A stretch of 64,000 nucleotides of DNA, taken from NCBI GenBank assembly GCA_016932415.1, contig JAFGCX010000020.1, forward strand, positions 124,001-188,000, written 5' to 3'. The notes under the pieces were generated by a model. That model ran no database searches. It had not been told where the DNA came from and was given only the letters and a program-made list of their open reading frames with translations. A program made the translations under genes and the position numbers. Positions 56,793 to 64,000 of the stretch are shown piece after piece (positions within the stretch are counted from its first letter, which is position 1; every line of letters begins with the position of its first letter). The stretch is from Candidatus Krumholzibacteriota bacterium (GTDB lineage Bacteria; Krumholzibacteriota; Krumholzibacteriia; Krumholzibacteriales; Krumholzibacteriaceae).

Positions 56793-58466
56793 TCAGATCT
56801 TCTCTTTCTTCATCTCCATCTTCTTCTGGATCTTCTGGAGTACCATCTGTCCGTTCTTGTTCTCGGGATTGATCTGAAGTGATTTCTGGTAATATTTCTT
56901 CGCCTTTTCAATATTTCCGGAAGCAAGATACGCTTCTCCGAGAGAATCATAAGTATTCCAGGAATCAGGATATTCTTCCACATTCAGCTTGAATACCCCT
57001 ATCGCTTCGTCCGGTTTCTCGTGATAGAGGAAGACATAGCCGAGAGTATTGAACTCGCCTTCCTTGAAATAGATGTTTTCCTGCCCATCGGACTTGAGTT
57101 TCTGGAAGACCTTTATCCCGTTTTCGAGGCCTTTTTTCTTGATAGCCTTGCCTACGATGGCGGCGGCGGAGTTTTCATCGGCGGATATCTTCTCCCAGGT
57201 GCCCATGATCTTTTCCCTCTGGGCCTGCTTTTTCTGCTCCGCGTAGGCTTTTTTCTCTTCCTCGGTCATATTCTTCATCTTCTCCGCTTCGAGCATCTTT
57301 TTTTTCTTTTCGATCTCCAGTTTCTTTTCCTTCTCCATCTGTTCGGTCTTTTCTTTTTTCTCTTTTTCAGTCTGCGCGACCGCCTGAGAATTCCACAGGC
57401 CCGATGTCGAAAGGGGAACCGTTATCATCAGGACCAGGATAGCGGTGACCACAGCGACTCTGCGGCTACCTCTTTTCCTGTCGATCCTGGTATTGAGGAT
57501 ATTCATCAGCCTCTCCTTAAGGTTTGAGCTCTGGGATATAGTTGACAACTGCCACACCGGCCTTGCCTGGCCACTCAGATCGGAAGCTATTTCCATTAGA
57601 AGCTCGGCATAATCTGATGGTTTCGCGCCTGCGCAGAGGACAGCATCATCACAATCCCGTTCACGTTCTATCCTGAGCTGCCTTACCGCGAACAGGATGA
57701 CCGGATTGAACCAGTAGATCACAGTCACTATCAGCGTAAAGATCTCGATCAGGGCATCCCATCGTTTCACATGGACAAGTTCATGGGAAAGGACAAGCCT
57801 GCGATGCGTTTCCGGCCAGTCCCCGGAATCGGCCGGCACTATCACTACGGGATTGAATATACCCGTTGTCATGGCGGCCTTTATCCTTTTTGACTCCAGC
57901 AGGCGTACGGTCCGGTTCAGGCCGATTCCTCCGGCGACATCACCGAGGATATCTTTCCAGCCATGGGAGGCTTCAGCGCAATTGAGGACAAAACGGCGCA
58001 TCGCGACCCATGATACCAGGCACCAGCAGATGTGAATCACCACACCGGCCATCCATACGGCGAAAACCCAGATATACCAGGGAGTACCGGCAAAGATATT
58101 TTTCCCCGTGATGCTCTTCTCCGCTGTACCGGCTCCTGGTGTCACGACGGGAGGGCCGGCTGAAGCAGGACCTTCACGGTATTCAAAATCACCGAGGACC
58201 CGCGCTGAATTCCAACTGCCCGGTTCAGGCAGTAACGGGAGGTTCCAGACCGGTGTTATAAGTGAAAGAACCGGTAAAAGAACCAGTCCCAGCAGGACCG
58301 AGACCCATATCGCGTTTCTCACGAAAGCCGACGAACGACTCAGAACGAGCGTTGCTATCGCGGCTCCGGCACAGATGACCGTCCCCTTGAGCGTAACGTC
58401 GATAAACAGCCTCAGCACCTCAGCCCACTGAACCTGTCCCAGCTGGCCCATAATGGTATCGATCAT
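56793..58466 (-). CDS. BlaR1/MecR1-type M56 membrane metallopeptidase with C-terminal coiled coil and TPRs
   Basis: 557 residues. About three TMs lie within 25-150. The gluzincin domain has HELVH (228-232) and the third ligand region ERERDCDDAVL (267-277), so the protease should be active. TM at about 349-368. BlaR1 and MecR1 carry a penicillin-binding sensor after this point; here residues ~375-430 are a Lys/Glu-rich coiled coil and ~440-550 are TPRs (NTLGYVFLYHEKPDEAIGVF, NTYDSLGEAYLASGNIEKAK). It presumably cleaves the adjacent BlaI-type repressor on an unknown cue. Two bases after the blaI stop. Confidence 0.88.
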   Translation of the reverse strand: MIDTIMGQLGQVQWAEVLRLFIDVTLKGTVICAGAAIATLVLSRSSAFVRNAIWVSVLLGLVLLPVLSLITPVWNLPLLPEPGSWNSARVLGDFEYREGPASAGPPVVTPGAGTAEKSITGKNIFAGTPWYIWVFAVWMAGVVIHICWCLVSWVAMRRFVLNCAEASHGWKDILGDVAGGIGLNRTVRLLESKRIKAAMTTGIFNPVVIVPADSGDWPETHRRLVLSHELVHVKRWDALIEIFTLIVTVIYWFNPVILFAVRQLRIERERDCDDAVLCAGAKPSDYAELLMEIASDLSGQARPVWQLSTISQSSNLKERLMNILNTRIDRKRGSRRVAVVTAILVLMITVPLSTSGLWNSQAVAQTEKEKKEKTEQMEKEKKLEIEKKKKMLEAEKMKNMTEEEKKAYAEQKKQAQREKIMGTWEKISADENSAAAIVGKAIKKKGLENGIKVFQKLKSDGQENIYFKEGEFNTLGYVFLYHEKPDEAIGVFKLNVEEYPDSWNTYDSLGEAYLASGNIEKAKKYYQKSLQINPENKNGQMVLQKIQKKMEMKKEKI

Positions 58467-58468
58467 CT

Positions 58469-58861
58469 TTACCTTCCCTCCTTTCTCGTATTCTTTATCA
58501 ACTCCAGTATCATTTCTTTATCCGCATCAGTCAGCCTGGCATCAGACCTCTTCAATATCGAGATGACGGCGCTCGCTTCAGAACCTTCAAAAAACGAGTC
58601 CATAAGATGATCGAGTGCGTTTTTTCTCGCCTGGCCAAGGGGGATCGTCGGTTTGTAAATGAATTTTCCCTTTACCGTTTCGTGAAAGAGGTAGCCCTTT
58701 TCCTCAAGTACTCCGAGCATCGTCCTCACGGTCGCGTTGACGGCATTGCCCGGGAGAATGTCGACGATCTCGGAGGCGCTGGAACTTCCCAGTTTGTAGA
58801 TGATTTCCATTATCTGTCTTTCTCTCTTAGTCAGCTCACTTATCTTCGGTCCATTCTTCAT
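58469..58861 (-). CDS. BlaI/MecI/CopY-family transcriptional repressor
   Basis: 130 residues. Winged helix: ISELTKRERQIMEIIYKLGSSSASEIVDIL, NATVRTMLGVLEEKGYLFHE. C-terminal dimerisation region (FEGSEASAVISILKRSDARLTDADKEMILELI). ATG at 58861 has GGGAGGGCAGG before it; the upstream in-frame extension is not used. Family members repress their own operon until cleaved by the partner M56 protease (BlaI) or released by metal (CopY). Confidence 0.92.
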   Translation of the reverse strand: MKNGPKISELTKRERQIMEIIYKLGSSSASEIVDILPGNAVNATVRTMLGVLEEKGYLFHETVKGKFIYKPTIPLGQARKNALDHLMDSFFEGSEASAVISILKRSDARLTDADKEMILELIKNTRKEGR

Positions 58862-58879
58862 CCTGCCCTCCCTTTGTAT

Positions 58880-58915
58880 TGTTAATACTCTAACATGTGT
58901 ATAATTTAACATTAT
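58880..58915. promoter_or_regulatory. Candidate BlaI-type operator
   Basis: Two perfect small inverted repeats lie between the candidate -35 and the Shine-Dalgarno: TGTTA-N6-TAACA (58880-58895) and ATAAT-N5-ATTAT (58901-58915). TAACAT also occurs twice. A/T-rich dyads with TACA/TGTA-like arms overlapping the promoter are usual for BlaI/MecI operators. Which dyad is bound is not known. Confidence 0.45.
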
Positions 58916-58931
58916 GTCAGGGATGTGTCAA
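58903..58931 (-). promoter_or_regulatory. Candidate sigma-70 promoter for blaI-blaR1
   Basis: Minus strand: perfect TTGACA (58931-58926), 17-base spacer, TAAATT (58908-58903; 4/6). The -10 lies inside the dyad ATAAT-N5-ATTAT, as expected for repressor control. Confidence 0.5.
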
Positions 58932-58940
58932 TATTTTTTT

Positions 58941-58967
58941 TGTAACTTCCTTCTTCCCCGCTTCGAC
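58941..58967 (+). promoter_or_regulatory. Candidate ECF-type promoter for the LTxxQ / sigma / efflux cluster
   Basis: TGTAAC (58941-58946), 17 bases, CGAC (58964-58967). AAC in the -35 and a CG-containing -10 at this spacing are the general ECF pattern (for example B. subtilis SigX: TGTAAC-N17-CGAC). No sigma-70 promoter is apparent before the gene at 59024, and an ECF sigma is encoded downstream at 60541. The promoter use is inference. Confidence 0.35.
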
Positions 58968-59023
58968 GTTAATGGCAGAGACGAGTTCTTCTTTACAGCG
59001 AATAGTCATAAGGGAGGTTTCAT

Positions 59024-59749
59024 ATGAGGTTTATGTCGATTTTATCGGCGTTTTTAATACTGTTCACGTCGACTTTCGTCCTTGCCTCCGGTCAGGACGC
59101 GAGCAGACGGGCGATCGAGAGCGATTATTCAAAATTACTTGTCAGGGTAAAAAGTACCATAACCCTTACTCCCGATCAGGACGCGAATATAAGCGCTCTT
59201 TACAGAGAGTATAACAGTTCGAGAAAATCGATCATTGAAAAATACCCGGAGGAAAACGACAACGACAGATTATCCAGACAGATCGAGATCAGAAGACTGA
59301 ACAGGGATATCGAAACCAGGTTGATCGAGATCCTTGATCCGGAGCAGCTTGAGACCTTCAACGGAATCCGGGAAGAGCATATCGGATCGGCGCGAAGGGA
59401 ACACCGCGAAAAAATGCGTACCGATGAGATCGATCTGATCATCGAGCGTCTTGAATTGACTGGTGACCAGGAGGAAAAAGTCATCGAGATCCTTGAAAAA
59501 CGATCGGAGAAGATAAACGCCCTGATGGAGGGAAGAAAGGACAGAGGCCGCGGTGGTTTCGCCGATATGCGAAAGAGGATGGAAATGATCGATTCCGAGA
59601 TCGAAGAGAGCCTTCGCGCAATACTGAACGACGATCAGATGATCGAATACACTAAGATCCACGAGGAAAGACGGGAAAAAATGCGTTCGACGCGTCCCGG
59701 CCCCGGTGGATCAGGAGAGATGAATAAAGACGATGAAAGGAGATTCTGA
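59024..59749 (+). CDS. Periplasmic protein with two tandem LTxxQ (Spy/CpxP-like) units
   Basis: 241 residues. Signal peptide (MRFMSILSAFLILFTSTFVLA), then two helical units. The first runs from ITLTPDQDANI to ILDPEQLETFNGI, the second from LELTGDQEEKVIEIL to ILNDDQMIEYTKI. Paired LTxxQ motifs define Spy, CpxP, ZraP and CnrX relatives, which act as periplasmic chaperones or metal sensors. The C-terminus is Gly/Pro-rich (RPGPGGSG). AAGGGAGG lies 8 bases before the ATG. First gene of the + strand cluster, divergent from blaI. Confidence 0.8.
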   Translation: MRFMSILSAFLILFTSTFVLASGQDASRRAIESDYSKLLVRVKSTITLTPDQDANISALYREYNSSRKSIIEKYPEENDNDRLSRQIEIRRLNRDIETRLIEILDPEQLETFNGIREEHIGSARREHREKMRTDEIDLIIERLELTGDQEEKVIEILEKRSEKINALMEGRKDRGRGGFADMRKRMEMIDSEIEESLRAILNDDQMIEYTKIHEERREKMRSTRPGPGGSGEMNKDDERRF

Positions 59750-59832
59750 AAGAAAGATCTGTCGTGAGCTTTAAAGCTTGTACGGCACACTGATATCTGG
59801 CATTAATTCAAACAAGAAAGAGGTAAGATAAA

Positions 59833-60498
59833 ATGAATACCGACAACAGCATGAAAAGGAACCCGAAAAGATCCTCCCGCCTGGCCGGAAAGGTCTCCAT
59901 CACCTTTCTGATCTCGCTTATCATCGCCGGCCTTGCCGGAAACCTGTACGCATCCAGGAGTGGCCGGCAAAGGCACACGATGGAAGAAAGGGAAACGATC
60001 CACAGTGAGCACGTCGCCCGTATAATAGAGAGACTCGATTTGACTGAGGATCAGAAAACAAGGATACTTCCTCTTCTTGAAGAAGGCATGGGAATGAGGA
60101 TGGGAGAACGGTTCGAGCGCAGAGACGGATATCGCCTCTCTGGCAGGTCAGCCCATCGGAAGGTTCGGATGGACTTTCACCGGCACGAAGCTCGCCGGCA
60201 TGAACTCATGGCGCTTCGTCATCATCGCCAGATGAGCGACCGATGCTGCCAGGACCACTCCATTGACCGTAATCGCGGGGCCGCGCGCAGACCTGATCGT
60301 TCTTATCATAACGGCAAAGTATGCGATTCCGGAAAAAACCTCCGTTTCAGGGATGATCGTGGCGTTCGCGGCGGCAATCATGGCCATATCGCCCGGATCG
60401 AGGAGATCCTGACCAAAGAGCAGATCGAAAGATTCCACGAGATCCGTATGGAACTTAGAAAAGAATTATTCGATAATGAAGAAAGTGAAGACAGATAG
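59833..60498 (+). CDS. Secreted LTxxQ (Spy/ZraP-like) protein with a His/Arg/Cys-rich insert
   Basis: 221 residues. N-terminal signal or anchor (VSITFLISLIIAGLAGNLYA) and two LTxxQ motifs: LDLTEDQKTRILPLLEEG and EILTKEQIERFHEIRMEL. They are about 120 residues apart, roughly twice the spacing in Spy. The stretch between (about 100-185) is full of His and Arg (DFHRHEARRHELMALRHHRQ) and has Cys-Cys, unlike its neighbours. It may be a metal-binding insertion or non-native DNA. AGAGGT precedes the ATG by 8 bases. Confidence 0.7.
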   Translation: MNTDNSMKRNPKRSSRLAGKVSITFLISLIIAGLAGNLYASRSGRQRHTMEERETIHSEHVARIIERLDLTEDQKTRILPLLEEGMGMRMGERFERRDGYRLSGRSAHRKVRMDFHRHEARRHELMALRHHRQMSDRCCQDHSIDRNRGAARRPDRSYHNGKVCDSGKNLRFRDDRGVRGGNHGHIARIEEILTKEQIERFHEIRMELRKELFDNEESEDR

Positions 60499-60540
60499 TA
60501 TCCTGTAACGTGGACTCATTCAGCGCCTGGTGCTATACAG

Positions 60541-61128
60541 ATGACCGACGAACAGTTAAAAGCCGCCGACGGGGATATCATCAGCCAGGTGCTGGGTGGG
60601 GACCATGACGCTTTCGGGAGATTGATAGACAGGTACAGTGAAGAGATCCTCAGGATCGTATCAAGAAGAATACCGGCGGAAGACGCCGGAGAGGTAGCTC
60701 ATGAAGTTTTTATCAGGGCGTTCAGATCGCTTGCCGGATTCAGGGGAGAAAGCCCATTTGGCAACTGGCTCGCCAGGATCGCCGTCCGGAGTTGTCACGA
60801 TTACTGGCGCGAAAGATACAGATCGAAAGAATCGCCGATGAATACTCTTGAAACCGAACAGAAGGAATGGCTTGACCGTTTCACTTCGGAAACCGCGAAA
60901 GATTCTTTCGACAGGGAAGAATCGAAGAAGACAGCCAGAGAGATCCTGATGTGGGCACTTGAAAAGATCGACCCGGACGACAGAGCTGTCCTCGAACTGG
61001 TTCATCTTGACGGTTTTTCCGTCAGTGAAGCAGCACTCACGCTTGGCTGGAGCAAAGGCAAAGTGAAGATACGAGCATTCAGATCGAGAAACAGATTAAG
61101 GAAATTGCTGGAGAAGGTCATCGATTGA
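60541..61128 (+). CDS. ECF-family RNA polymerase sigma factor
   Basis: 195 residues. Region 2: FGRLIDRYSEEILRIVSRRI, DAGEVAHEVFIRAFRSLAGF, SPFGNWLARIAVRSCHDYWRER. Region 4: LELVHLDGFSVSEAALTLGWSKGKVKIRAFRSRNRL. No good Shine-Dalgarno before the ATG at 60541, so translation may be low. TGTAAC also occurs 30 bases upstream. It is followed with slight overlap by a small TM protein that may be its anti-sigma factor. Confidence 0.9.
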   Translation: MTDEQLKAADGDIISQVLGGDHDAFGRLIDRYSEEILRIVSRRIPAEDAGEVAHEVFIRAFRSLAGFRGESPFGNWLARIAVRSCHDYWRERYRSKESPMNTLETEQKEWLDRFTSETAKDSFDREESKKTAREILMWALEKIDPDDRAVLELVHLDGFSVSEAALTLGWSKGKVKIRAFRSRNRLRKLLEKVID

Positions 61129-61151
61129 CAGGATTTGCAAGGAAGTATCCG

Positions 61152-61472
61152 ATGAGATCCCGAAAAGAAATAATAGACGGAATAGAAAAAGAACTGGCTT
61201 CTTCCTGGAAGAGTGGAAAGACGGTCTCTGTCGATCCTCAGTGGAAAAACCGCATAATGAGAGAGATTAGGATATCCGCGGACGAGGCTGGACAGAGATC
61301 ATTGTTTGAAACCCATGGAAGGTTGATCTGGCGTTTCTCCATGATCGCCACGGGATTGACCCTGTTTTTCCTGATATATGTTTTGTCGAGCGATGTTATG
61401 CCGTACAGGGATCTTGCCCTTCTTTTCCTGGAAGACCCCGCAGGTTTTATACTTTCTCCCCCGTTTGTATAG
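61152..61472 (+). CDS. Small single-TM protein, putative anti-sigma factor
   Basis: 106 residues from ATG 61152 (AAGGAAG upstream; an in-frame TTG at 61125 overlaps the sigma stop). A charged cytoplasmic N-terminus (~58 residues) is followed by one TM (about 60-80, WRFSMIATGLTLFFLIYVL) and a short outside tail. No zinc finger. Size, topology and place directly after the ECF sigma resemble CnrY-type anti-sigma factors; no sequence similarity is claimed. Confidence 0.65.
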   Translation: MRSRKEIIDGIEKELASSWKSGKTVSVDPQWKNRIMREIRISADEAGQRSLFETHGRLIWRFSMIATGLTLFFLIYVLSSDVMPYRDLALLFLEDPAGFILSPPFV

Positions 61473-61486
61473 GCCGGAAAGGAAAG

Positions 61487-61957
61487 ATGAGGAATATGAA
61501 AAATCTCAAGGTATGGTCGGCGATGGCGCTTATTTTCTTTTCAGGAGCTGTCATAGGGGTGGCTGTTTCCACGTTCGTCATAAAAAAACATGTCATGGGA
61601 TTCATGGAAGGAGGGCCTCCGAGAGCAAACCGAAGGATCGTAATGGAAGTCACGAGGGACATAGACCTCTCCGACCTTCAGCGAGCGCGGATAGATTCGA
61701 TCATGAACGATAACAATTCAAGGATCGAAACGATCGCCGGAGAGTTCCGCGAGACAATGGACCAGTTCTTCGAATCGCAGACTTCGCAGATCATGGCTCT
61801 TCTAACCGAGGAGCAGCAGAGGGAATTCGACAGAAGATATTCGGAAATCAGGAAGACTATTGAAAAAAGGATCCATCGGCATTCTCCAGCTCACAGGCCA
61901 GGAGACAGAAAGATACGCAAGCGGCATCATCCGCGGCAGCCGTCAGACAGCATCTGA
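61487..61957 (+). CDS. Membrane-anchored LTxxQ protein with His-rich tail (CnrX-like sensor)
   Basis: 156 residues. N-terminal anchor (WSAMALIFFSGAVIGVAVSTF), periplasmic helical domain with IDLSDLQRARIDSIM and ALLTEEQQREFDRRYSEI, and a basic tail with clustered His (IHRHSPAHRPG, KRHHPRQP). A one-TM anchored protein of this fold next to an ECF sigma and a small TM protein is the pattern of CnrX/NccX metal sensors. The His cluster at the C-terminus could bind metal; the ligand set of CnrX itself is not conserved in an obvious way. Start 61487 or 61496. Confidence 0.72.
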   Translation: MRNMKNLKVWSAMALIFFSGAVIGVAVSTFVIKKHVMGFMEGGPPRANRRIVMEVTRDIDLSDLQRARIDSIMNDNNSRIETIAGEFRETMDQFFESQTSQIMALLTEEQQREFDRRYSEIRKTIEKRIHRHSPAHRPGDRKIRKRHHPRQPSDSI

Positions 61958-61960
61958 CGG
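61940..61960. other. Hairpin overlapping the stop of the LTxxQ anchor gene
   Basis: CCGTCAGA-CAGCA-TCTGACGG: perfect 8-bp stem with a 5-base loop; the TGA stop lies in the 3' arm. A second inverted repeat, CGGAATA / TATTCCG (61961-61967 and 61984-61990), follows at once. No T-run, so termination before the efflux genes is possible but unproven. Confidence 0.5.
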
Positions 61961-62011
61961 CGGAATATGATCATCGACCAGTGTATTCCGGTGTCTATTG
62001 AAAAAACTCCA

Positions 62012-62040
62012 TTTCAATTTCCCGCCGGCTTGATTATAAT
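62012..62040 (+). promoter_or_regulatory. Candidate promoter for the efflux genes
   Basis: A perfect TATAAT at 62035-62040, 27 bases before the ATG at 62067. The best -35 at 17 bases is poor (TTTCAA, 62012-62017), so it may need an activator, or be only A/T-rich chance. Confidence 0.4.
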
Positions 62041-62066
62041 CTTTTATTGAATGAATCATCGGCATA

Positions 62067-63518
62067 ATGAAAGGATCCGGTAAGTTCAAATTGACTGTGA
62101 AACTGATAATATATCTTCTTTTCATACTCATTACGGTCTCCTCGTGCGGAACCGGGCTTTTAAAACCTGGTATCGATAGCCATGCTTCCCGCCTCGTCGA
62201 GATCCCTTCAACCTATGAAGGATCATTGGCAGACAGTTCATCCCCGGCAGATTTTGACAAATGGTGGACCGTTTTTCAGGATCCGGATATCGATACTCTC
62301 GTAGAAGACCTGATCGAAAGAAACCTCGATATTCAGGTCGCCAGCGCGGTTATAAAGGAAATGCAGGCGAGATCGTCACAGACCCGCTCGGCGAGATTGC
62401 CTTCGGTCTCACTGAACGGAAGTTACCAGCGCCAGTTGACGCCGGAAATATCGACTCCGATGGGGATCTCGGGGGGAGAAGAAACTGACTCGTATAATCT
62501 ATCCGCCGCGGCTTCGTTCGAACTCGATCTCTGGGGAAAATTATCGATGGCCGATGAAGCCGCCCGCTTCGACCTTCTTTCCTCGATCGAAAACAGAAAT
62601 ATTATTGTGCAGGGGATAATCTCCGAAGCGATATCGATCTATCTCCAGATCGAGGCTCTTGAAAGACGGATCGCCATATCAGAGGAGACTATCTCCAGAT
62701 ATAAGAATAACGTCGAAATAATGACCTATCGTTACAACAAGGGACTGGTATCGACTCTTGAACTTCAGCAGTCGAAGCGCAATCTCGCGAGTGCTGAATC
62801 GAACCTGCCACTTCTCAGGCAGGAACTCGGGATCAATCAGCAACGTCTCCGCATCATCACGGGAAAATATCCCGCGACCAGTCCACCGAAGAAACAACCT
62901 GAGGATTACTTCAGAACCCTCTCCCCCGTTCCCGAAGGCCTTCCCTCAGACCTTCTTGAGAACAGGCCCGACATCAGAAGCGCAGCGGCGAGGCTTGGAG
63001 CGGCTGCCGCCAGAGTAGGCGTCGCCAGGAGCAACCTTCTGCCCAGGATCACCTTCACCGGAAATTACGGTTACGCCAGCGACCAGCTCACAGACCTGAC
63101 CGGGCCGGGGAACCTCCTCTGGAACATAATCGCTGGTATAACCCAGCCTGTCTTCAGTTCAGGAAGGCTTACCGCTGAAAAAAATGCCGCGTGGGCGAAA
63201 TATCAGCAGGAATACGTCAGTTACGCTAAAGTGATCCTTAACGCTTTCTCGGAAGTGGAAGCCGCCCTTCTCACTCGGGAGCAGCAGATCAGGAGAAGGG
63301 AAAAGGTCATTGTCTTCCTGCGCCAGGCAAGAAGCACTCAGGAAATAGCCGAAAAAAGATATCAGAGAGGGCTCATAAGCTATCTGACCGTACTCGACGC
63401 GATGCAGGCAAGGTTCATCGCCGAACAGAGTCTTGTCCTTACCGACCTTGCGATAATGACCAACAGGGTCGCCCTGCATCGAGCACTCGGCGGCAGCTGG
63501 CTGGAAGAAAAGGAATGA
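62067..63518 (+). CDS. NodT/TolC-type outer membrane efflux lipoprotein
   Basis: 483 residues with lipobox ITVSSC (Cys27). DFDKWWTVFQDPDIDTLVEDLIERNLDIQVA is the standard NodT-family opening (W-W-x-x-F-x-D-P-x-L). Two repeats of the outer-membrane-efflux domain follow, with internal duplication: FELDLWGKLS and later ITQPVFSSGRL. The LLENRPDIRSAAARLGAAAARVGVARSNLLPRI helix is also typical. Outer-membrane duct of a tripartite RND pump; the adaptor gene follows directly. Confidence 0.93.
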   Translation: MKGSGKFKLTVKLIIYLLFILITVSSCGTGLLKPGIDSHASRLVEIPSTYEGSLADSSSPADFDKWWTVFQDPDIDTLVEDLIERNLDIQVASAVIKEMQARSSQTRSARLPSVSLNGSYQRQLTPEISTPMGISGGEETDSYNLSAAASFELDLWGKLSMADEAARFDLLSSIENRNIIVQGIISEAISIYLQIEALERRIAISEETISRYKNNVEIMTYRYNKGLVSTLELQQSKRNLASAESNLPLLRQELGINQQRLRIITGKYPATSPPKKQPEDYFRTLSPVPEGLPSDLLENRPDIRSAAARLGAAAARVGVARSNLLPRITFTGNYGYASDQLTDLTGPGNLLWNIIAGITQPVFSSGRLTAEKNAAWAKYQQEYVSYAKVILNAFSEVEAALLTREQQIRRREKVIVFLRQARSTQEIAEKRYQRGLISYLTVLDAMQARFIAEQSLVLTDLAIMTNRVALHRALGGSWLEEKE

Positions 63519-64000
63519 TGATAATGGGTGTTACGAAGAGACTCGGGGACCTCAGGAGATCAAGACCCCGGTTGTTTCAATTTCTCATCTCGATCGTGAT
63601 CATCGCCGTGGGAGCTTTCATCGTCGTTGTCTTGATGGCCACAAAGACAGAGGTGATAAAACGTAAGTCCAGCATTCCTGTGCCTGTCGTGAACACACTC
63701 AGGATCGAACCGGCCGCCAGGAGGATAGTTCTTACGGGAGAAGGGACTGTAAGGCCCCTGAGAATCATAAACCTTGTGCCCCAGGTCAGCGGAAAGATAG
63801 TCTCGCTCGATGACAGGTTCGCCGATGGAGGAGAATTTGCCCGGGGAGAACAACTCCTTAAGATCGAGGACACCGATTACAGGCTTGCCGTCAAATCGGC
63901 CGAATCAAAGGTCATGGACCTTGAAAGCAGACTCCAGATGGCGATCGAGGAAGCGGCGGCGGCCAGGGAAGAATGGGCGATGAGTAATAATGGAGAGGAA
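63518..64000 (+). CDS. RND efflux periplasmic adaptor (membrane fusion protein), partial
   Basis: The first ~161 residues are in the window and the frame is open at base 64000. A single TM anchor (LFQFLISIVIIAVGAFIVVVLMA) is followed by VRPLRIINLVPQVSGKIVSLDDRFADGGEFARGEQLLKIEDTDYRLAVKSAE, the biotinyl-lipoyl-like barrel start of HlyD/AcrA adaptors, then the beginning of the helical hairpin. The ATG overlaps the stop of the NodT gene; two further in-frame ATGs lie at 63515 and 63524. An inner-membrane RND pump gene is expected just outside the window. Confidence 0.88.
   Translation, partial: MIMGVTKRLGDLRRSRPRLFQFLISIVIIAVGAFIVVVLMATKTEVIKRKSSIPVPVVNTLRIEPAARRIVLTGEGTVRPLRIINLVPQVSGKIVSLDDRFADGGEFARGEQLLKIEDTDYRLAVKSAESKVMDLESRLQMAIEEAAAAREEWAMSNNGEE

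Follow-up and report, generated by a model that had tools for sequence, protein, structure and literature searches.

We analysed a window of 64,000 nucleotides (the whole stretch of DNA presented here) from the metagenome-assembled genome (MAG) of a Krumholzibacteriota bacterium (genome G000; the window is C20:124001-188000), and the reading was extended 12 kb beyond its right end. Near this end lie genes for an extracytoplasmic function (ECF) sigma factor, a putative anti-sigma factor and a membrane-anchored LTxxQ protein. Our best explanation, which we consider probable, is that they belong to an autoregulated envelope-stress module with an output like that of the Bae system (Spy-type proteins plus a resistance-nodulation-division (RND) efflux pump) and a tonB-exbB operon as a further target, and that the BlaI/M56 gene pair beside it is a separate circuit. 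This reading is carried by the gene content, by a gene trio conserved together in two phyla, by a conserved promoter and by a second target of that promoter. A first-pass annotation of the region had described a possible cnr/ncc-like nickel and cobalt sensing and efflux module combined with a BlaI-M56 switch. The genes that it named are all present where it placed them, as judged by matches to Pfam and other hidden Markov models and, for the second LTxxQ protein, by an orthologue in genome G001.

The gene trio and its promoter

We compared 34 loci, comprising 16 from Krumholzibacteriota, 17 from Nitrospirota and 1 from a 'Deltaproteobacteria' contig. The sigma factor, anti-sigma and anchored protein genes were adjacent, and in that order, in 34 of 34. 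The loci were retrieved via the anti-sigma or the sigma factor, so this count is conditional on that retrieval, and they are related rather than independent samples. The order kept in these related loci indicates that the genes are grouped more than by chance. The first-pass annotation treated all genes of the region as one system, to be judged by the conservation of the block in relatives; this holds for the trio, whose members never separate, and fails for the efflux genes and BlaI/M56, which do part from it.

The putative anti-sigma was present in 16 of 58 related genomes, every one of the same family or order, and when 80 genomes of the phylum were searched with a profile, only a single marginal match (E 1.7e-4) was gained. 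With the sigma factor as query, the same trio turned up in three genomes of Nitrospirota, one of them that of Candidatus Magnetobacterium casense, and on the one 'Deltaproteobacteria' contig. Searching 198 genomes of Nitrospirota with a profile gave 15 matches, 14 of them new.

Among solved structures in a PDB search, the sigma factor was closer to RpoE (86 bits) and SigH (73) than to CnrH (51). In one locus (L020) the sigma and anti-sigma genes share one frame. No Pfam family was found in the anti-sigma across 20 members, nor was an RseA domain or the zinc anti-sigma motif (HxxxCxxC) found in these members by Pfam and alignment, and the protein putatively represents a new family. In its tail Pro96 is invariant, and a PPFV C-terminus is frequent, occurring in many members from Krumholzibacteriota and Nitrospirota. 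This conserved C-terminus looks like a recognition site for a PDZ domain or for the anchored protein.

Among 19 anchored proteins, LTXXQ was matched in 17 and Metal_resist in 8. In a comparison with PDB profiles the anchored protein matched Spy (E 3.5e-6) and, weakly, CpxP; CnrX was not among the best 60 listed. The only residues invariant across the 19 proteins were F17, G20, G24 and Q110.

The promoter TGTAAC-N17-CGAC was surveyed in 34 upstream windows (68 kb), with spacers of 12 to 22 and two reversed-pattern controls. Of the 34 loci, 27 had an exact match at the corresponding position, 5 had near-exact matches, and in the other 2 (L038, L165) the region was missing through contig ends; the reversed controls gave 0. 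The spacer optimum was sharp at 17: spacer 16 occurred in one locus, none was found at 12-15, 18, 19, 21 or 22, and three matches at spacer 20 were taken as CGACGAC overlaps. Two further loci carried TGAAAC-N17-CGAC, and 9 of 10 positions were matched in L033 and L158. Conservation of the promoter extends over about ten genera of Krumholzibacteriota and to Nitrospirota, and the spacer sequences are unrelated. Because it is so conserved while the controls are empty, which is our strongest evidence, the operon is very probably autoregulated by its own sigma factor. In genus g2 (L024, L026, L027, L028, L030) there are two back-to-back copies, and the five opposite-strand matches of the survey are all there; the second copy points towards a divergently oriented gene whose product, putatively secreted, is about 300 aa long.

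The same promoter was found far from the window, upstream of a tonB-exbB operon (G000:C26:48780-49777; L071, L140; orthologues L072-L082). The exact match is orthologous in G000 and G001 and lies just 5' of the gene for a TonB-C protein, which is followed by ExbB and then an ExbD-like frame (ExbD recognised by sequence). Twelve genomes have a full-length tonB orthologue, and in 8 of them (G000, G001, G009, G015, G011, G008, G014, G017) the exact promoter lies at -77 to -94. It is absent from G006 and G007, two genomes in which no anti-sigma was found; in G012 the upstream region matched at 9 of 10 positions with a spacer of 16.

Two other matches were seen. Genus g8 has a further conserved sigma-type promoter (G008:C10:61902-61928, L109 and L142; G014:C294:33-59, L120), which in G008 precedes a gene for a 103-aa protein without clear family. 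Also in G008, and in this single genome, an exact match (L117, G008:C26:108501-108527) lies 51 nt 5' of an LptF/LptG-like permease gene, possibly by chance.

Table 1. Features of the module and its surroundings, in window positions (TM, transmembrane; TPR, tetratricopeptide repeat; HAE, hydrophobe/amphiphile efflux; ORF, open reading frame).
Feature	Position	Strand	Evidence and remarks
M56 peptidase (HELVH) with C-terminal TPR	56793-58466	-	Peptidase_M56 E 2.4e-34; TPR E 2.7e-9
BlaI/CopY-like repressor	58469-58861	-	Penicillinase_R E 1e-21; listed ORF extends to 58912; the relatives, which start at an equivalent Met, agree better with a start at 58861
Conserved BlaI-type operator TAACATGTGTATAATTTAACA	58891-58911		Overlaps the -10 of a promoter-like site of blaI, 58931-58903 (-)
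ECF-type promoter TGTAAC-N17-CGAC	58941-58967	+	-35 58941-58946, -10 58964-58967; sole exact match in the window
Secreted LTxxQ (Spy-like) protein, two LTxxQ repeat pairs	59024-59749	+	PF07813 E 1.3e-6; orthologues in relatives
Second secreted LTxxQ-like protein, His-rich Cys-Cys insert	59833-60498	+	PF07813 E 0.23 (weak); G001 orthologue
ECF sigma factor	60541-61128	+	sigma70-ECF 88 bits (cut-off 42.9)
Putative one-TM anti-sigma, 106 aa	61152-61472	+	No Pfam family; always directly 3' of the sigma gene
Membrane-anchored LTxxQ protein, putative sensor partner	61487-61957	+	PF07813 E 1.7e-4, 22.7 bits (cut-off 24.3); His-rich tail
NodT-type outer-membrane duct	62067-63518	+	TIGR01845 297 bits (cut-off 210)
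RND periplasmic adaptor	63515-64726 (window ends at 64000)	+	TIGR01730 157 bits (cut-off 95)
HAE-type RND permease, 1045 aa	64723-67860, window-equivalent, beyond the window (L002:8724-11861)		ACR_tran E 1.5e-170

Secreted proteins, efflux genes and the BlaI/M56 neighbours

A secreted LTxxQ gene lies upstream of the trio in many loci; in genus g2 and part of the Nitrospirota the sigma gene is the first one. The second secreted protein of the window can be taken as real because an orthologue with the same layout exists in G001 (phmmer E 1e-31). A frameshift in its gene was considered and is ruled out by that identical layout. Its Cys-Cys/His-rich insert is retained in this sister genome and is a possible metal or redox site.

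The annotation had suggested looking for an RND pump to the right of position 64,000, and the permease was indeed found there, followed on its 3' side by a gene for a 4Fe-4S membrane protein. The trio is followed by outer-membrane protein, adaptor and RND permease genes in G000, G001, G009, G015 and G008. In four Nitrospirota genomes (G223, G259, G237, G271) it is followed by an adaptor and two RND permeases in the MdtABC layout, and in G013 by an outer-membrane protein, adaptor, ABC ATPase and MacB-like set (MacB recognised by sequence). Judged from these layouts, efflux is a common output, but one whose pump can be exchanged.

Whether the pump belongs to the output at all has to be weighed, since the module could govern only the periplasmic proteins and tonB, with the duct, adaptor and permease genes merely adjoining under a promoter of their own. 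A gap of 109 nt lies 5' of the duct gene, many relatives have no adjoining pump, and a TPR-CHAT protein gene follows the trio in two genomes (G002, G019). However, in several genera belonging to two phyla this position is taken by different tripartite pumps, the pump lies on the same strand, and no plus-strand terminator was found in the gap. We therefore regard a merely neighbouring pump as unlikely, and the pump as likely to be co-transcribed with the sigma operon.

The divergent BlaI/M56 pair had been proposed as a possible second regulatory layer on the same envelope stress. Applied to the sigma operon, this proposal would have BlaI repress both blaI-M56 and the sigma operon until relieved by M56 proteolysis. 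It draws on the fact that the two are divergent neighbours whose common intergenic region holds both the operator and the sigma promoter in G000, G001, G009 and G015, the four genomes in which this operator, 21 bp long (TAACATGTGTAWAATTTAACA, with C as its first base in G009 and G015), adjoins blaI. However, the operator covers the -10 of blaI and lies upstream of the -35 of the sigma promoter (58941). When the loci part, the operator follows blaI: in G010, with one mismatch, it stays with blaI while mnmA lies between blaI and the sigma operon. In G008 a copy with three mismatches is found next to mnmA and dprA, and the sigma operon is about 21 kb away. Second operator sites also occur 5' of genes for ankyrin-repeat proteins in G000, G001 and G015, with a metallo-beta-lactamase (MBL) fold domain confirmed for G000. 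Finally, some genomes in which no anti-sigma was found have M56 genes, and blaI does not adjoin the module in most module loci. A shared two-layer switch is thus improbable.

Because the operator sits on the blaI promoter, follows blaI when the loci part and recurs before other genes, BlaI/M56 is best read as a separate circuit next to the module that has targets of its own. A degree of cross-talk may occur within the shared intergenic region. The circuit resembles BlaI-BlaR1 in its BlaI-type repressor, its adjoining HEXXH M56 peptidase and its operator, which lies on the promoter of blaI itself. It differs in carrying a TPR where BlaR1 has a penicillin-binding sensor domain (blaR1_generic 113 bits, cut-off 400) and in its second targets, which here are the MBL-fold/ankyrin proteins. 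In G010 an operator also lies 5' of a gene for an MBL-like-looking protein whose TPR resembles that of the M56 protein (L069, L070, L068 and L067 set).

Comparison with the cnr/ncc metal systems

The cnr set consisted of cnrYXH-CBA of pMOL28 and eight related loci, whose X and Y proteins were aligned and compared as family profiles; comparisons of single sequences were uninformative. The anchored protein matched the CnrX family profile with E 4.6e-7 (probability 92.6%), and the anti-sigma matched the CnrY family profile across its N-terminal helices with E 6.8e-5 (probability 63%). The cross-comparison controls gave E 0.24 and 0.0019. The two proteins are thus probably remote relatives of CnrX and CnrY.

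Beyond this remote homology of the trio with CnrH-CnrY-CnrX, a divergent metal response, in which the anchored protein would bind a transition metal and free the sigma factor while the pump exports the metal, could appeal to the Metal_resist matches, to the His-rich tail of the anchored protein in this genome and to the Cys-Cys/His-rich second LTxxQ protein. However, the CnrX ligands H42, H46, E63, H119 and M123, invariant in nine CnrX-family proteins, have no conserved counterpart among the 19 anchored proteins, and the His-rich tail is a local feature that is gone in three Nitrospirota rows. The permease scores 463 bits with RND_permease_2 and 295 bits with CusA/CzcA, and its TM4 motif is GIVVDDAIVIGEN versus DFGLIIDGAVIIVEN in CnrA; by both it is of the HAE or multidrug type. 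In relatives the pump slot is filled by MdtABC-like or MacAB-like sets. The gene order is H-Y-X in all 34 loci and Y-X-H in the nine cnr-type loci, where the TGTAAC-N17-CGAC promoter is absent. Given these differences, a cnr/ncc-type metal response is very unlikely.

Because the metal ligands are absent, the pump is of HAE type and the gene order differs, the module, as far as sequence can tell, is not a member of the cnr/ncc nickel/cobalt systems. Of the cnr/ncc-like module first described, the likeness of the trio by profile, its altered order and its position 5' of an RND pump stand, while nickel/cobalt sensing and metal export do not. At the predicted signalling level it is CnrYXH-like. 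CnrYXH-CBA and NccYXH of Cupriavidus and the Cop-linked YXH loci of sphingomonads likewise combine an ECF sigma factor, a CnrY-like anti-sigma and an anchored CnrX-superfamily protein, often with an adjoining export system as here. They differ in gene order and promoter, in having conserved metal ligands, and in their heavy-metal RND or copper genes.

Proposed mechanism and related systems

We propose that at rest the N-terminal helices of the one-TM anti-sigma would hold the sigma factor at the inner membrane. The short conserved periplasmic tail of the anti-sigma would be read by the anchored protein, a member of the Spy/CpxP/CnrX superfamily. Envelope damage, for instance through protein misfolded in the periplasm or through a toxic amphiphile, and not nickel or cobalt, would engage the anchored protein, upon which the anti-sigma would release the sigma factor and transcription would start from TGTAAC-N17-CGAC promoters. 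The outputs would be the module's own operon, with the secreted Spy-like proteins, the sigma factor, the anti-sigma, the anchored protein and here the HAE-type RND pump, and the separate tonB-exbB operon. Anti-sigma activity of the 61152-61472 product is suggested by its position, topology and CnrY-like N-terminus and by the precedent of AabA described below. Sensing through the tail is suggested by the conserved Pro96 and PPFV. The nature of the signal is surmised from the Spy/CpxP superfamily and from the Bae-like output, and the substrates of the pump are likewise presumed.

Several results weigh against this explanation. AlphaFold2 models of the anchored protein (pTM 0.45 at full length, 0.50 for the soluble part) gave nothing at E <= 0.001 in Foldseek against PDB, the best E values being 2.1 and 3.6. 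Many relatives have no pump adjoining the module. G010 has the module and lacks the tonB promoter, and G017 has the tonB promoter and no module was found in it (this genome is 81% complete, and its sister genomes have the module). Genome-wide, exact promoter matches in G000 were not above the reversed control (4+0 versus 4+1), because of which the core regulon is probably small.

In gene layout the module is like SigAb-AabA-AabB of Acinetobacter baumannii, in which AabA and AabB were shown by experiment to inhibit SigAb (PMC12153292). There too the order is sigma factor, one-TM anti-sigma of about 107 aa with predicted CnrY-like binding, and periplasmic partner. SigAb is likewise autoregulated, as the sequence predicts for the present operon, and has a very small direct regulon and a 17-bp promoter spacer. 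It differs in its promoter (GTCAAC/CGTT) and its link to copper, and no secreted LTxxQ genes or pump are described in its operon (PMC12153292). AabB and the anchored LTxxQ protein are likened by operon position, not by sequence.

In output the module resembles BaeSR/Cpx of enterobacteria, where the Bae regulon consists of spy, mdtA and acrD and a Spy-type periplasmic protein is thus combined with the HAE RND pumps MdtABC and AcrD (PMC3160322). However, those are two-component systems and this is an ECF sigma factor, with no common regulator. The promoter elements are essentially those given for SigX of B. subtilis (-35 TGTAAC, -10 CGWC, as cited in PMC12153292); SigX is from a Gram-positive bacterium and, as far as that citation reaches, its target genes are not shared.

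A literature search found no paper combining BlaI, M56, RND and a sigma factor, and for LTXXQ, ECF sigma and anti-sigma together it returned expression studies only. We give about even chances to the stronger claim that this is a distinct, deeply conserved ECF response in which a tethered Spy-like protein gates a CnrY-like anti-sigma, with a promoter fixed across Krumholzibacteriota and Nitrospirota, a pump that is swapped and TonB-ExbB in the regulon.

The module offers a promoter code, a regulon and a candidate sensor, all open to direct testing, for the response to envelope stress in two phyla with almost no genetics, among them Nitrospirota with the magnetotactic Magnetobacterium. If our explanation is true, proteins of the CnrX/Spy/CpxP fold would serve ECF sigma factors more generally as partners in responding to envelope damage, metal sensing by CnrX would be a special case of this, and a single conserved switch would have efflux pumps as interchangeable outputs.

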